A stretch of DNA of 24,659 nucleotides from a virus: positions 1 to 24,659 of IMG/VR virus record IMGVR_UViG_3300009008_001779; one strand, 5' to 3'. Shown piece by piece: positions 13,263-22,059 of this stretch (position 1 is the first letter of the stretch; each line of letters starts with the position of its first letter). Both the position numbers and the translations under genes were made by a program. Under the pieces are notes generated by a model. It worked only from the letters and a program-made list of their open reading frames with translations. It searched no databases and had not been told where the DNA came from.

Positions 13263-14561
13263 TTAGACCTCTGGTGTTTGTATGTTCGTGGAGGAGACTT
13301 CCTTGAAGTTGAACCTTAGAAGAGTGTGCATGTACACCGGGGTCTTCTCGGGAACATTTTGTTCGGGTGTAGCTTCCGCTATTCGTTGCTCGCGGGTAGC
13401 GTTCACCCTCATCTTCCGCGCGGACCTTCTTTCTAGTCGCGCGACATCTCCTGACTGAGTTGTATTGTTTTTGAACTCGGGTTTCATCTCGTCGATGAGA
13501 CACAAAGTAGCGATATCCATATCTAGGTCTGAGGCCACCCTCTTACCCAGAACAAATTTCAAACCTTTGAGAAGAATTACTTCGGGATCTCCTATCGCTT
13601 TCATTGGCGTGATAATTGAGTCTATGGTGTGGTTCTGGATTAAGCTAAGAGTCGGAGCGATCTCGACTTTAGGTGCTCTCCTCACCTTCTGAAGAAGTAG
13701 TAACAGAGAGTTACATATTAGTTCGAATTTATCTGCGGGGTCCCCCTCCCACCTCCTGAGATGTTCGGAGACACCTACGGTGTCGAGGCTACAGATCGCG
13801 CGGAGAGTTTTGACCAGATGTTCTATCTCCCCTAGTTGGAAGACCTCCCGGACGATCTCGAGATCGAATTCTCCTTGCAGGAGTACTTGATCTAGATTCT
13901 TGATGAGGTCTCGGGGGTGTCCTTTAGAGATGAACGCGATCACCTTGAGGGCGTCCTGATCTGGTTCGGGGATGCCCTCTTTGTGGCATATCGTCGTGAG
14001 CAGGTGGACCGCGTCTTCGGCTTTCAGAAGATTGACTTGGAGAAGATGACATCTGGATTGGACAGCGTTTCGAACCTTGTCGATCTCTGTCGTGGAGAAG
14101 ATGAAGCAGAGCCATTCGGGTGGCTCTTCGACGATCTTGAGGAGAGCGTCCCATGCTTGTCTGGAGAGACCTTGACACTCGTCCACGATGAAGAACTTCT
14201 TGTTTCCGTGGATAGGGGGCATCCTGGCGTTATCGATGATCTTGTGTATTTCGTCTATACGCCCTTTTGAGGCCCCGTCGAACTCCAGGAGTGCCGGGTG
14301 TTCCCTTCCCGTTCGACCGAACTTCCGGCAGGAGGTACATTCGTTGCAGGCGTCACCCTCTGTAGGGTGCTCGCATAGGGAACATTTCACCCAGTAGCGG
14401 GCACCGCTGGTCTTTCCGGAACCCCACGCACCGTGTAGGATGATGTTACGAGTTTGTTGATTCCTGTTGACCAGGCTTCGGAAGAGCCTGACTACTGAGT
14501 CCTGTCCGATGAATTGGCTCCACCTGGACGGTCTGTGTCTATTGAAGAGGTTCTCTTCCAC
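13263..14561 (-). CDS. dnaX: Clamp loader ATPase, DnaX (gamma/tau) type
   Basis: The ATP-hydrolysing subunit that opens a sliding clamp and loads it on primed DNA. Typical DnaX features are seen: an N-terminal LFNRHRPSRWSQFIGQ block, Walker A GAWGSGKT (residues 44-51), a zinc module with cysteines at 60, 63, 72, 75 and 78, FDGASKGRIDEIHKII, Walker B FFIVDECQ (123-130), and the SRC arginine-finger motif (169-171). A collar-like C-terminal region follows. At 432 aa it is about the length of bacterial gamma rather than tau, with a short basic tail. The start is GTG behind AAGGAA. It lies next to the Nudix and delta genes, so the loader is co-expressed. Confidence 0.9.
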   Translation of the reverse strand: MEENLFNRHRPSRWSQFIGQDSVVRLFRSLVNRNQQTRNIILHGAWGSGKTSGARYWVKCSLCEHPTEGDACNECTSCRKFGRTGREHPALLEFDGASKGRIDEIHKIIDNARMPPIHGNKKFFIVDECQGLSRQAWDALLKIVEEPPEWLCFIFSTTEIDKVRNAVQSRCHLLQVNLLKAEDAVHLLTTICHKEGIPEPDQDALKVIAFISKGHPRDLIKNLDQVLLQGEFDLEIVREVFQLGEIEHLVKTLRAICSLDTVGVSEHLRRWEGDPADKFELICNSLLLLLQKVRRAPKVEIAPTLSLIQNHTIDSIITPMKAIGDPEVILLKGLKFVLGKRVASDLDMDIATLCLIDEMKPEFKNNTTQSGDVARLERRSARKMRVNATREQRIAEATPEQNVPEKTPVYMHTLLRFNFKEVSSTNIQTPEV

Positions 14562-14616
14562 GCTAGGTTCCTTTGACAGTCTCTCCGAACCTTTGTATAG
14601 CTAGGTAGAGGTTTAG

Positions 14617-15195
14617 CTACTCTCGGGTTCGGAGGGAGATCAGTTGGGCCTTCCATTCACATGAGTTTCTGATCTCTTCGGGGGACAGAAAAGTCCTCTG
14701 GGTGTTTGCCTCGAAGATATTTTCAGGCTGCTTCAACTCTTGTTTCAGACCTGTGATGTCTACGATGAAAAGGTGTACGATCTCGTTGGAGTTACCGCAG
14801 ACAGGTTCAGATGAGATATAGTGAATTCTCTCTTCTCCGACGTCGTAGCCGGCTTCCTCTTGGACCTCTTCGACCACTATTCCCTTCAGAGGGAGGTCTT
14901 TGTCGATTGATCCGGTAAAGGCCCCGTGGATAAACCTGTCGTGAGGAGTGGAGTATTGGGAGAGTACCTGGAGAGGTCTCTCTTTTCGGGAGGTATCGAT
15001 CAGCAGAAAGGCGACAGAGTTTTTACCGACTCTTTGGACGTAGTCGTAGGTTGTGTCGTCTCTCCCCGGTACTTGGGCACGGAAGAGAGTGATGTATTTT
15101 TTCTTTCCGTTATCGGAGGAGTCGGTCACCTTGTCGTGGACGAGCTTCTTGGTTAGCTCGCGGAACTCTGGGGTAATCTGAGCTGTTCGTTTCAT
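14617..15195 (-). CDS. Nudix-hydrolase-like protein
   Basis: A Nudix-box-like segment lies near residues 95-118. The core EEVQEEAGYDV matches the REUxEExGU half, except that the leading Arg is Glu; the first half (GSIDKDLPLK) is off-consensus in the Gx5E part. Flanking strands (VAFLLIDTS, FIHGAFTGS, VHLFIVDIT) fit the Nudix fold, and the pattern resembles ADP-ribose or sugar-nucleotide pyrophosphatase relatives. Phage Nudix enzymes can act on NDP-linked metabolites or RNA caps. The length of 192 aa is normal. The gene lies between the delta and DnaX clamp-loader genes with no regulatory gap. Activity is uncertain because of the box changes. Confidence 0.65.
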   Translation of the reverse strand: MKRTAQITPEFRELTKKLVHDKVTDSSDNGKKKYITLFRAQVPGRDDTTYDYVQRVGKNSVAFLLIDTSRKERPLQVLSQYSTPHDRFIHGAFTGSIDKDLPLKGIVVEEVQEEAGYDVGEERIHYISSEPVCGNSNEIVHLFIVDITGLKQELKQPENIFEANTQRTFLSPEEIRNSCEWKAQLISLRTRE

Positions 15196-15197
15196 AT

Positions 15198-16094
15198 CTA
15201 CCTCTGGTTCCTTTGTAATGTATGCACTCTGAGAAACGTCTGACCTCTCCAGGAAGTCTCGGGAGCCAAGATCCTGGTTGAGAGTTCAACCAGATTTCCT
15301 TGTCGGATAGTTGCGATCTTGTCTTTTACCCTGTCGAGGGCCCACGGGAGATCCGGTCTACTTGGATCGAGTTTGGTAGTTATGACATCTAGTAGAGATC
15401 GAGCGAGTATATTGGGGATAACTTCGGGTGTGTATCCTTTCTCGATCATTAGAGTTGAGACCATTTTTAGACCCCAGGAGTCGGCCATCTCGGCTCCTTT
15501 AGCTAGATCGATGATCGTATCTAGTACCTCGGCGTTCGAGTTCCTTTCCTCTACGAGAACCTCTCCTGCTGGTCGAAGATCGTTCGACTCTCTCAGTAGA
15601 GTTAGATATTCGACTCTCAGTAGAACTTGACCCGTATCCCAACTACCTCTAGCGGCCATTTGTGTCAGTACCTCGAGGTCGTCGTCGCTAACTTCGTCGT
15701 GCCTGTGTTTGACGAAGGAGGCGAGGGTCTTCTTGTTTTTAGGCCCTGGTTTGAATTCCTCGATCCGGGTAGTTATCTTTTCCTCTGTATCCCCCAGATC
15801 TTCTGAGAGGAGGATAACGGGGTTCTCTGATTGGAGGACGGATCGAGTAATATCGGGATCTAGTTTGAGACCCCTTCCGTCTAGGAGTAGGAGTTTCTTT
15901 CCGAACAGAGGACGTGTGAGAAGGGCTTCTTTGAAGGTTGCTGGAGGGACTTCTTCGAGAGGGAGTTCTTTGAACTTAGGTAGAGATAACAGACGGTTGA
16001 GGACCTCCCTGTGCATCGAGGCCGTCTCTGTGATGATGTGGATCTTTTCGGAGACAACGATCCGTTCTTTAGTTAGAAACTCTATGTCTTTCAT
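15198..16094 (-). CDS. holA: Clamp loader delta subunit (HolA-like)
   Basis: The delta subunit is the wrench that opens the clamp. It has no nucleotide binding of its own. The protein matches the family in outline: a helical start (IHIITETASMHREVLNRL), then the landmark LTRPLFGKKLLLLDGRGL (HolA reads similarly, slFgd-r-lvv), followed by NPVILLSE, the end of the N-terminal domain. The helical domains and a C-terminal collar region follow (ATIRQGNLVELSTRIL). Length, 298 aa, is near the usual 330. It overlaps the delta' gene by 26 nt, and no conserved ATPase motif is present, as expected for delta. Confidence is moderate since delta is highly divergent and identification rests partly on the neighbours. 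Confidence 0.68.
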   Translation of the reverse strand: MKDIEFLTKERIVVSEKIHIITETASMHREVLNRLLSLPKFKELPLEEVPPATFKEALLTRPLFGKKLLLLDGRGLKLDPDITRSVLQSENPVILLSEDLGDTEEKITTRIEEFKPGPKNKKTLASFVKHRHDEVSDDDLEVLTQMAARGSWDTGQVLLRVEYLTLLRESNDLRPAGEVLVEERNSNAEVLDTIIDLAKGAEMADSWGLKMVSTLMIEKGYTPEVIPNILARSLLDVITTKLDPSRPDLPWALDRVKDKIATIRQGNLVELSTRILAPETSWRGQTFLRVHTLQRNQR

Positions 16095-16974
16095 TCTCTG
16101 CCCCTATCTCTGTATAGTATATACCGAGAGATAACATAAGAGCTGCCAGGGCGGTGAAGTAATCCTTCCCCGGCTTTTTCACCATTTTGTGGTGGGGTCT
16201 CGTTTCGATGAATTGACGGGTGTATTTGAGGACCCGACTACGATGTTGTCCTCTGGCGAGGGTGTTTTCCGTGTCTTCTTTTCTTCGAAGCCAGAGAATC
16301 AGAAGGACATCTATGATATCGGTGGCGAAGAATCCGAGGTCGACACCTTTCTTCACCGTTTTATCGAGCCAATTGGCTAGTAAGTGGGGGGGCACGGACT
16401 TTTCGATTTCCTCGTTCTCTAGGAGACCTGTTTGAACAGCTATAGCTCTATGATGGTTTGTCTTCAGTTCTGGGAGTTGGAGAGACGGAGTGAGAGCTTG
16501 TAGTTTTGGATTCTGTTGGATATCCGCTTCTGTTAGAGGGGTATCCTTGTGGTAGGATCGGGAGACGCATCTAGAGATAATCGCCCCGGGGAGCAGTGCT
16601 CTAGATGTCGCGAGAAGATGAATTTGGTGGTTCGGGGGAGGTTCCTCCGCGATCTTGAGGGTGTAGTCCAGACAAGGTCTGGAGGCCAGATCCAGGTCTT
16701 TGATAATGAGGTATCTGTGTGTCAGATCTACTCTCATATGGTCGGAGAAGGCTGCTAGGGTATCGCGGAACTCCTTCGCGGAGAGACTACCTGAGAGAAA
16801 GGTAATGTCGAGACAGGTCCCATTTTTGATTCTGTGACAGATCGGACAGGAGTTGCATCCACACTCTCTCGCCAGGATATGTTTTGTGATCGCGACTTCT
16901 CTTCCCGACCCCCTTGCTCCTAGATGGAGGAGGGTGAGTCCCGGAGGTACCTCGAAGAGGTTCTGTTCCTTCAT
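16069..16974 (-). CDS. holB: Clamp loader delta' subunit (HolB-like)
   Basis: The stator subunit of a bacterial-type clamp loader. A degenerate P-loop GARGSGRE (19-26) has R where a catalytic loader has K, which is typical of delta'. It is followed by a four-cysteine zinc module (C38, C40, C43, C46), a Walker B-like YLIIKDLD (88-95), the LKIAEEPPP helix-turn, and the SRC arginine-finger motif at 134-136. The C-terminal half is helical. The start ATG follows GGAGG. Length, 301 aa, matches HolB (334 in E. coli). It precedes and overlaps the delta gene, forming a co-expressed set with DnaX further on. Confidence 0.82.
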   Translation of the reverse strand: MKEQNLFEVPPGLTLLHLGARGSGREVAITKHILARECGCNSCPICHRIKNGTCLDITFLSGSLSAKEFRDTLAAFSDHMRVDLTHRYLIIKDLDLASRPCLDYTLKIAEEPPPNHQIHLLATSRALLPGAIISRCVSRSYHKDTPLTEADIQQNPKLQALTPSLQLPELKTNHHRAIAVQTGLLENEEIEKSVPPHLLANWLDKTVKKGVDLGFFATDIIDVLLILWLRRKEDTENTLARGQHRSRVLKYTRQFIETRPHHKMVKKPGKDYFTALAALMLSLGIYYTEIGAENERHRVSN

Positions 16975-18794: not shown

Positions 18795-19063
18795 TCGATA
18801 AGACCCTGGGCCTTCAGTACCTGTTCGAGCGCCTTGAGACCTTTCATCCTCTCCTTTTTGGCGTACCCGTCAATGAAGATGGTTCCTTTCTCGGGCCAGT
18901 AGTTGACGGGGCCAATTTTAATCTGGCTTGGTACGGGGTTCTCCGTGTACAAACCCAGATCCTCCATACGCCGTTCGGCTTCCTCCTGTTTGCTTTCCCT
19001 TTTTTTTCTTTGTCTTGTGGTTGTTTCCGTGTCTACGACACGTACGAGAGGTCTAGCTGGCAT
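18791..19063 (-). CDS. Hypothetical protein, 90 aa
   Basis: I do not recognise this protein. The first 35 residues are very charged (TTTRQRKKRESKQEEAERRMED) and likely a helix or linker. A compact C-terminal part reads IKIGPVNYWPEKGTIFIDGYA, then a basic KALEQVLKAQGLIE. It overlaps the J-domain gene by 11 nt upstream and the CobU-like gene by 4 nt downstream, so translation is coupled. Confidence 0.65.
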   Translation of the reverse strand: MPARPLVRVVDTETTTRQRKKRESKQEEAERRMEDLGLYTENPVPSQIKIGPVNYWPEKGTIFIDGYAKKERMKGLKALEQVLKAQGLIE

Positions 19064-19703
19064 ATGGGTCTCCGTGCTCGTTTATGAGATGTTGGATCAC
19101 TTCGCATATGTGGGTGATAAAGAGGGAGCGGGCTTCTGTCCAGGATTCGAGGGAGTCTTGCCCGCAGAGGTAGTGGATCCTGTACCCTCGGGTCTGATAT
19201 ATCTCGCTCAGCCGAACATTGAGTTTCAGGTAGGTGTCTTCTAGTTCGGCGCGAACCCCCACGGCATCGATATCTTCTTCGCCGAGGAGGGTTAGGATGT
19301 CTTCCACCCGCCCCTCCTCGGCGGCGGCGGAGAGGTCCTTGAATTTGGCTTCGGCGTCGGGATCGTCGGAGACGTCTGGATGGAGTTTCCGAGCCGCTGC
19401 TTTGTATAGTTGCTTTACCTTGTCGCTGAGATCTGGGGTTTCGACCTCGTCGAAGAGGGAGGGGGAGACCCTGTTCGGAAACATCTGGACCTTGTCTGTC
19501 AGATCCTTGAATTCCCGTGCCAGAACGTCGGAACTCTGTTGTATGTCTCTGTTGAGCTCGTCGATCTGTCGACGAAGGTGTTTGATCTCGAGGATTAGCG
19601 ACCGACGTGGTCGTAACCTATCGGCTGTCGTGGAGACGAGCGCGTTGATATCAACAACCGAGTCGAAGGGCTTCCTTGGGGGATCTGATCTCTTGGGTTC
19701 CAT
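19053..19703 (-). CDS. J-domain (DnaJ-like) protein
   Basis: Residues 94-130 match a J-domain: KVKQLYKAAARKLHPDVSDD, with the HPD at 108-110 that stimulates Hsp70 ATPase, then AEAKFKDLSAAAEEGR. A predicted coiled coil lies before it (about 35-75, EIKHLRRQIDELNRDI). The remaining C-terminal part is unlike DnaJ, so this is a type III J protein that could recruit host DnaK to a phage target. The start is uncertain: ATG 19703 gives 216 aa but has no good Shine-Dalgarno; a TTG at 19745 would add 14 residues. It overlaps the endopeptidase gene by 53 nt. Confidence 0.72.
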   Translation of the reverse strand: MEPKRSDPPRKPFDSVVDINALVSTTADRLRPRRSLILEIKHLRRQIDELNRDIQQSSDVLAREFKDLTDKVQMFPNRVSPSLFDEVETPDLSDKVKQLYKAAARKLHPDVSDDPDAEAKFKDLSAAAEEGRVEDILTLLGEEDIDAVGVRAELEDTYLKLNVRLSEIYQTRGYRIHYLCGQDSLESWTEARSLFITHICEVIQHLINEHGDPYAS

Positions 19704-20262
19704 TTGAGGATATAGCCAGAATGGAACCCCTACCCGCAGCTCCAAGTCGGGTCGACACGTGTACCCATCCGGGTCTCCCCGGCCCGACCCCGTATTCGTG
19801 GATTAACTGGTCTATGTTTAGGCGTTCCAGATTGAGGGAGAGGTAGGCGAAGAGGAGAAAATTGGCGTTGATATCTTGTCGGAGAGTCTGGCCAGTCGTC
19901 TCTATAGTTCTCTTCTGGAGGTGGGTTCTGAAAATCTGAGGGAGGACCTCGTTTGACCTCAAGAGGGCGTCGGGAACTTTGACGTCGGTTGCCTCCCCCT
20001 TGACATGTTGGGAGGTATCGGATCCTCCGACGTATCTATTGAGTTCGGGACTTCTGTACCCCGAGGAGATTCGCAGGGGACAACCTAACTCGCTCCTCGC
20101 CGGTTGGAGAACTCTGAGAACGAGGTTATTCAGGGAGCCCACCACTTCGCGAGAGGGAGCCATCATCGTCGCGTACAGATCCGGGAGTCTTGCGGCCACG
20201 TCCGAACTTAGCATCTCCGCGAGAGAGAAATTCTGTGATATCCTCCAGTGTAGATCTACCAT
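19651..20262 (-). CDS. M15 peptidoglycan endopeptidase (endolysin)
   Basis: The 203-aa protein has the zinc motifs of the Peptidase_M15_3 family, D-Ala-type peptidases acting on cell-wall cross-links: SSGYRSPELN (66-75), SQHVKGEATDV with H86 and D93 as zinc ligands, and a final WVHVS with H168. QNFSLAEML near the N-terminus is also typical. No signal peptide is seen, so release through holin pores is expected, and the 3-TM holin gene is directly upstream (7-nt overlap). It is slightly longer than usual because of the helical insert at 105-150 and a short C-terminal tail. Confidence 0.9.
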   Translation of the reverse strand: MVDLHWRISQNFSLAEMLSSDVAARLPDLYATMMAPSREVVGSLNNLVLRVLQPARSELGCPLRISSGYRSPELNRYVGGSDTSQHVKGEATDVKVPDALLRSNEVLPQIFRTHLQKRTIETTGQTLRQDINANFLLFAYLSLNLERLNIDQLIHEYGVGPGRPGWVHVSTRLGAAGRGSILAISSNGTQEIRSPKEALRLGC

Positions 20263-21372: not shown

Positions 21373-22005
21373 CTAGATTTCGTATACAGATTTATAGCCG
21401 GGAAACGAGGGAAAATCCCCCGGGGATACAGCATCTCTCTCCATGAGAGGAGGTCCCGTACGTCTTTTTACCACACCCAGCTTACGGTTCACTTCCGGCC
21501 CGTTTATAACGAAAATAAATTCGCTACATACTACAGCGGTGGTGTCGTCGAAATCGAAATCCATGTCGTAGGGAGTACCTATCATGCTCTCGGCGCGGGC
21601 GGAGATCTCTTCTATTTCCTGGGGGGATAGACCTTCCGGGCGGAGAACCAGGATCTTGTCTGTGCGACAGAACTGATATATATCTTCGAAGGAGACCCCT
21701 TTTGCCACGGCGTGTATGACCCTGTCTTTCGAGGTTACGTAACCGATGTGGGTCCACGGCTTCCCGGAGAGAAGCCGGATAAAGAGACCGTCCACGTAAT
21801 CGGTGTACCCTCGTAGGATGATATCCCCTTCGCGGAGCTCTTGGGAGATTTTTCGACTATCTGCCCCTGTGACCTTATACCCCCTTGGTTTGTAGTAGAC
21901 AAATGGGGGATATTTCGAGAGTCTCAGATGGCTTACAAAGATGAAGAACTTGTTACGTATTGCTTTGAGGAGGTTCAAGGGAGCTAGTGTATCGAGATTA
22001 TCCAT
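21373..22005 (-). CDS. YiiX-like permuted NlpC/P60 cysteine hydrolase
   Basis: The protein matches the permuted papain-like amidases of the YiiX/C92 type. GDIILRG starts the domain, SGKPWTHIGYV supplies the catalytic His (86), GTPYDMDFDFDD supplies the conserved acidic region, and VVCSEFIFV has the catalytic Cys (160). The ATG at 22005 is preferred, behind GAGGAG; an upstream in-frame start at 22050 lies inside the terminator. It has no obvious signal peptide. These enzymes cleave amide bonds in lipids or peptidoglycan, so it may assist lysis or act on the membrane. It starts the lysis module. Confidence 0.78.
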   Translation of the reverse strand: MDNLDTLAPLNLLKAIRNKFFIFVSHLRLSKYPPFVYYKPRGYKVTGADSRKISQELREGDIILRGYTDYVDGLFIRLLSGKPWTHIGYVTSKDRVIHAVAKGVSFEDIYQFCRTDKILVLRPEGLSPQEIEEISARAESMIGTPYDMDFDFDDTTAVVCSEFIFVINGPEVNRKLGVVKRRTGPPLMERDAVSPGDFPSFPGYKSVYEI

Positions 22006-22027
22006 GTTCGTTGTAGACTCCTCACGG

Positions 22028-22059
22028 AAAAGGGGGGTTTCCTTTCTCAAGGAAACCCC
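22028..22059 (-). terminator. Rho-independent terminator after the tail-fibre gene
   Basis: An 11-bp perfect stem (22034-22044 with 22049-22059) has a 4-nt loop, GAGA on the minus strand, followed by CC and TTTT. It lies 40 nt beyond the tail-fibre stop codon and just before the C92 hydrolase start, separating fibre and lysis transcripts. Confidence 0.85.

Follow-up and report, generated by a model that had tools for sequence, protein, structure and literature searches.

The window analysed here, the whole 24,659-base virus fragment IMGVR_UViG_3300009008_001779 from IMG/VR, most probably encodes a complete bacterial-type clamp loader, with DnaX, delta' and delta specified by one operon of a phage-G-like megaphage. 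An earlier note, made from the letters of the window alone, had proposed such a three-subunit loader; our comparisons support that reading as essentially right and extend the feature, at the level of sequence, to a whole clade of megaphages, which probably build the loader-and-clamp part of their replication machinery themselves. The genes and motifs concerned are given below in the order in which they run on the minus strand:

16974 to 16069, minus strand: delta' (HolB-like, 301 residues), the AAA+ stator subunit, its P-loop inactive, from profiles and motifs
16920 to 16900, minus strand: degenerate Walker A of delta', GARGSGR, Lys replaced by Arg, from motif reading
16094 to 15198, minus strand: probable delta (HolA-like, 298 residues), the clamp-opening subunit, from position, hhalign rank and fold retrieval
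15908 to 15903, minus strand: Leu63-Phe64 of the probable delta, opposite the beta-clamp plug (Leu73-Phe74) of E. coli delta in the alignment
15195 to 14617, minus strand: Nudix-like gene, 192 residues, PF00293 with a degenerate box
14561 to 13263, minus strand: DnaX (gamma-type, 432 residues), the motor ATPase subunit, with a GTG start, from profiles and motifs
14432 to 14409, minus strand: Walker A of DnaX, GAWGSGKT, residues 44-51, from motif reading

The genes for delta' and delta overlap by 26 bases, delta and the Nudix-like gene are 2 bases apart, and the latter is separated from DnaX by 55 bases. Given these overlapping or near-touching genes, and the Shine-Dalgarno-like sequences before delta' (GGAGG), the Nudix-like gene (AGAGG) and DnaX (AAGGA), the four appear to be arranged as in an operon. 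The grouping of the loader genes that had been noted earlier thus stands in its coordinates and order, whereas the Nudix assignment of the intervening gene is marginal (PF00293 E-value 0.007, below the cut-off), and nothing indicates that this gene has a role in the loader. In most relatives (L126-L137) the position after the delta'-delta pair is occupied by a ribonucleotide reductase large subunit gene, as against the Nudix-like gene and DnaX in the window.

The identities of DnaX and delta' are directly supported, and the contrast between an active and an inactive P-loop that had been read from the sequence is borne out. The 432-residue protein can be assigned to DnaX with certainty from its sequence: it matches TIGR02397 (1.2e-66; its score of 225 bits lies below the 250-bit equivalog cut-off), PF13177 (5.4e-27) and the clamp loader family PHROG 5846 (5.7e-54), and its Walker A, Cys4 zinc site, Walker B (IVDE), SRC and sensor 2 (GHPRD) motifs are all intact. 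Its best matches are only about 30% identical to it, and it has no tau extension. The 301-residue protein scores above the curated cut-off of PF13177, the Pfam family DNA_pol3_delta2 (3.4e-9, 37.3 bits against 27), matches the holB model TIGR00678 (4.1e-8) and aligns in hhalign with a profile of the delta' proteins of its relatives (1.9e-5 over 101 columns). It keeps both the CxCxxCxxC (Cys4) and the SRC motifs and, the Walker A Lys having become Arg, carries the sequence signature of delta'. Most of the relatives have a delta' of 195-235 residues (L126, L127, L128, L131, L132, L134-L139), a length that apparently leaves no room for the collar domain found in a normal delta'. In at least three relatives DnaX is interrupted by an intein directly after the Asp-Glu of Walker B:

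L003:30817-32703 (LR745208), L152:6638-8602 and L153:7686-10695: intein-interrupted DnaX, with HINT/intein-splicing matches

The last of these regions also contains an open reading frame with a LAGLIDADG endonuclease. Further, a 123-kb contig placed in a bacterial metagenome-assembled genome (L184) encodes a 57% identical megaphage DnaX, and is probably a megaphage that was assigned to the bacterium by a binning error.

The genes of the window, including those for the terminase, portal, protease and capsid, lie on the minus strand. The major capsid protein shares 38-49% identity over 95% with its counterparts in Bacillus phage G (497 kb), the Tunturiibacter phage Tunturi_5 (309 kb) and the uncultured huge phage LR745208 (485 kb); by this sequence measure the window therefore comes from a phage-G-like (Donellivirus-like) megaphage. 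A search of viral contigs with an alignment of the major capsid protein drew in at least 587 related stretches, some on contigs of up to 619 kb. Even the best match among them reaches no more than about 50% identity, and the window's own branch is therefore otherwise unsampled. Single-sequence queries with the large terminase, DnaX and delta did not retrieve close relatives from the viral contigs.

A Pfam scan for DnaX and delta' covered 37 related records and recovered DnaX and, in many of them, a second, shorter delta'-like gene. In all 16 records in which both delta' and delta are found, the two genes share a strand, with delta the downstream one; in 15 of these they directly adjoin, a single extra open reading frame separating them in LR745208. 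The relatives' delta proteins match TIGR01128 over the whole model (6.6e-35 to 3.7e-16, with up to 120.9 bits against a cut-off of 80). As this model also weakly matches phage DnaX reading frames (up to 3e-19), a profile search against the PDB was used for delta: it retrieved the B. subtilis delta (3zh9_B, 2.1e-36) and the E. coli delta (1jqj_C, 2e-4), and no gamma or RFC chain appeared in the match list. PF06144, the Pfam model of HolA, found nothing in the clade although TIGR01128 matches, and is misleading if used alone. The conserved delta'-delta pair is thus directly supported, and by these sequence criteria the gene next to delta' in the relatives is a true HolA. In LR745208 this pair lies about 14 kb from DnaX; two reading frames of the size of delta and delta' just upstream of DnaX in that genome were rejected as the pair, one encoding an RNase-Z-like protein and the other an unassigned one.

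The gene for the 298-residue protein of the window occupies the same place after delta' as the HolA of the relatives, and its identification as delta is in this sense indirect. In hhalign comparisons with the phage HolA profile it ranks first among 146 decoys and 200 shuffled sequences, and the top-ranked alignment runs on the diagonal, with residues 47-93 facing profile positions 46-92. This segment includes Leu63-Phe64, of which Phe64 falls at a nearly invariant position in the alignment with the relatives' delta; the same profile columns align with the 'LF' of the E. coli delta 1jqj_C, the Leu73-Phe74 of which is established as the hydrophobic plug that opens the beta clamp. In low-confidence structural models the predicted order of helices and strands is that of a delta. 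Among the 22 leading PDB matches of the single-sequence model, which involves no alignment that could bias a fold search, about 20 are chains of T4 gp44, RFC or E. coli gamma, matched over 230-330 columns. The model based on a multiple sequence alignment gave no clear match with Foldseek and VIA-align and is also circular, the remaining rows of its alignment being HolA; global hhalign of the protein was likewise uninformative.

Several observations weigh against counting this protein, and with it the whole loader, as established. The 298-residue protein had no match in Pfam, PHROGs, NCBIfam, the PDB sequences or 50,697 phage records, so that the earlier description of it as HolA-like stands through the relatives, the hhalign rank and the plug, and not through a family profile of the kind that placed DnaX and delta' among the clamp loaders. 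With the relatives' delta profile in HMMER it scores no better than its shuffled copies, and hhalign against the relatives' HolA profile gives a probability of only 7.7%. Its AlphaFold models are poor (mean predicted local distance difference test score, pLDDT, of 41 for the single sequence and 48.5 with ten relatives), and no Foldseek match obtained with them reaches 0.001, the fold matches being suggestive only. Moreover, the clamp and the polymerase of the window's own phage lie outside the fragment, unseen. The want of a direct family match would suit a partial loader, in which DnaX and delta' are the only subunits, the 298-residue gene is unrelated, and the host's delta and clamp are used in taking over the host machine; ten other DnaX-carrying phages also manage without a recognisable delta or delta'. 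We nevertheless regard such a partial loader as unlikely in the face of the delta'-delta adjacency conserved in the relatives, the first rank among the decoys, the clamp-plug motif, the recovery of clamp-loader chains by the unbiased fold search, and the clamp carried by the relatives themselves. The 298-residue protein is, in our estimate, very probably delta.

As had been noted earlier, no clamp gene is recognisable in the 24.7-kb fragment, probably because the contig is only a piece of the genome. Among the relatives, a gene for a DnaN-type beta clamp is situated some 3-4 kb upstream of DnaX; it matches TIGR00663 in four records (down to 3.7e-9), a profile of its family matches the solved beta clamps of the PDB (2.1e-15), and the same profile recovers the clamp gene from 23 of 32 related records. 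The joint occurrence of DnaX, delta', delta and this clamp is directly supported in 15 of the relatives' records. A family-A DNA polymerase is present in 12 of 25 related records, mostly the longest ones, and polymerase III alpha was found only in phage G. The suggestion that the virus builds its own loader for its own clamp thus gains support from relatives that encode the three subunit types together with a DnaN clamp and, in most of the large ones, a family-A polymerase, and a comparable clamp would be expected in the window's own phage.

By analogy with the E. coli gamma complex, a DnaX3-delta-delta' assembly (PDB 1JR3), the three proteins would form a pentamer in which three copies of DnaX bind and hydrolyse ATP to drive loading, and delta', with its dead P-loop, serves as a rigid stator that supplies the SRC arginine finger. 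Delta would then bind the dimeric DnaN-type beta clamp and open it through its Leu-Phe plug. Such a loader could place the phage clamp at primed sites, where the loaded clamp would tether the phage DNA polymerase (of family A in the relatives) and perhaps other clients.

The order of genes around DnaX is conserved in the relatives: a nuclease, the clamp, two to three small genes, a Toprim primase, a metallopeptidase, DnaX, a NusG-like gene, a sigma-like gene and, later, the terminase. The corresponding genes of the window are:

13261 to 11870, minus strand: 463-residue protein directly after DnaX, with weak hhalign matches to NusG-like and exonuclease parts
11869 to 11219, minus strand: sigma-70 region-4-like protein, 216 residues, PF08281 5.1e-9

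The 463-residue protein aligns weakly but collinearly with the NusG-like genes of the clade (135 columns) and, in matching domain order, with an exonuclease part (61 columns). It is probably a fusion, with a NusG-like N-terminal half joined to a degenerate half that resembles a 5'-3' exonuclease and appears to have lost its catalytic motifs. An intact fusion of this kind is seen in L140:4907-6736 (PF02357, PF00467 and PF02739), and in L145:5201-6142 the exonuclease is a separate gene. The sigma-like homologues beside DnaX in the relatives match down to 2.3e-11, and seem to carry a second helix-turn-helix. In T4 the clamp gp45 works with gp55 and gp33 in late transcription, and the NusG-like and sigma-like neighbours of DnaX make a T4-style coupling of the clamp to late transcription possible. 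Indeed, as NusG-like and sigma region-4-like genes directly follow DnaX in most of the clade, the loader might serve mainly late transcription, with the clamp acting alongside their products, and not mainly replication. We consider this improbable, given that the same block also holds the primase, nuclease and clamp, which point to replication; in any case the two roles are not exclusive. A larger proposal, which we hold to be doubtful, is that the clade possesses an autonomous hybrid replisome, with the DnaX/delta/delta' loader, the DnaN clamp and a family-A polymerase, in which the clamp is also coupled to late transcription via the NusG-like and sigma-like proteins. That the loader genes were recently taken over from a host, or are functionless remnants, as their bacterial subunit types might suggest, is very improbable and already disfavoured by the approximately 30% identity of DnaX to its best matches, the intact motifs and reading frames, and the conservation of the set across many megaphages from different metagenomes.

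The predicted loader resembles that of bacteria in its three subunit types, the active P-loop of DnaX and inactive one of delta', the SRC motifs, the Leu-Phe plug of the probable delta and, in the relatives, the DnaN-type clamp. It differs in that the set lies in one genome with phage structural genes, is very divergent and lacks the tau extension, and, in the relatives, in the mostly short delta' and the use by most large ones of a family-A polymerase in place of DnaE/PolC. The T4 loader has two subunit types, gp44 and gp62, the latter small and without an AAA+ core, and its clamp gp45 is trimeric. The megaphages share with T4 the encoding of both loader and clamp by the phage and the proximity of late-transcription genes, but have three subunit types and a DnaN-type clamp; the window itself contains two different PF13177 proteins and the 298-residue protein as a third. 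The claim that most phages carry no loader needs qualification: DnaX alone is less rare than this implied, being found in 204 of the 50,697 phage records (many from near-identical phages), and phages with DnaX-like 'clamp loader' genes (PHROG 5846), such as Erwinia Yoloswag, Pseudomonas PaBG, Vibrio SSP002 and Nodularia kac65v151, have a member of the same DnaX family. Nevertheless, in ten unrelated cultured DnaX-carrying phages we found one PF13177 gene each and no separate delta' or delta, the matches to the HolA model falling on DnaX itself. In the annotated phage collection, LR745208 itself gave the only match to the relatives' delta proteins. Phage G and Tunturi_5 share the capsid lineage of the window, and the relatives' delta profile found delta in neither; Tunturi_5 has a DnaX, whereas phage G has a RarA-like protein and polymerase III alpha instead.

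To our knowledge, the phage clamp loaders studied so far either follow the T4 plan, with two genes, or are lone DnaX-like genes of unsettled partnership. Among jumbo phages, Iyer and co-workers described loaders of the RFC-like kind, in some cases with no clamp detectable; a DnaX/delta/delta' set is not mentioned there (PMC7824862). In other papers on jumbo phages the only wording used is 'sliding clamp loader subunit' (PMC11448039; PMC13282480). We found no description of a phage DnaX/delta/delta' set in the literature covered, which did not extend to two older surveys of viral replicases, and priority is not certain. On this reading the system would be a known machine in complete viral form, of real interest to specialists in replication and not a new principle. 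If the reading is correct, these viruses would have all three loader subunits and a clamp of their own, and could assemble this portion of the replication apparatus without the host's. The evolution of the asymmetric delta and delta' could also be followed in a separate, viral lineage that includes a delta' of only about 200 residues, and the conserved order of DnaX, NusG-like and sigma-like genes would make coupling of replication and late transcription via the clamp directly testable outside T4.

Of the genes listed next, the large terminase shows the window to be phage and the major capsid protein places it in the phage-G-like clade, the portal gene being further context:

2880 to 2017, minus strand: major capsid protein, PHROG 2522 2.9e-49, with the capsid identity given above
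7499 to 5610, minus strand: portal protein, PHROG 16240 2e-11
9358 to 7496, minus strand: large terminase, PHROG 2 4.2e-22, 28% identical to that of LR745208 over 96%

Elsewhere in the window, positions 609-2096 encode a 495-residue protein with a C-terminal HNH endonuclease domain and, as judged by sight, repeated zinc-ribbon-like Cys motifs; its frame overlaps the end of that of the capsid gene. Beyond the loader operon lie genes for a probable DnaJ-domain protein (19053-19745), a probable M15 peptidase that would act as an endolysin (19651-20262) and a probable C92-type amidase (21373-22050).

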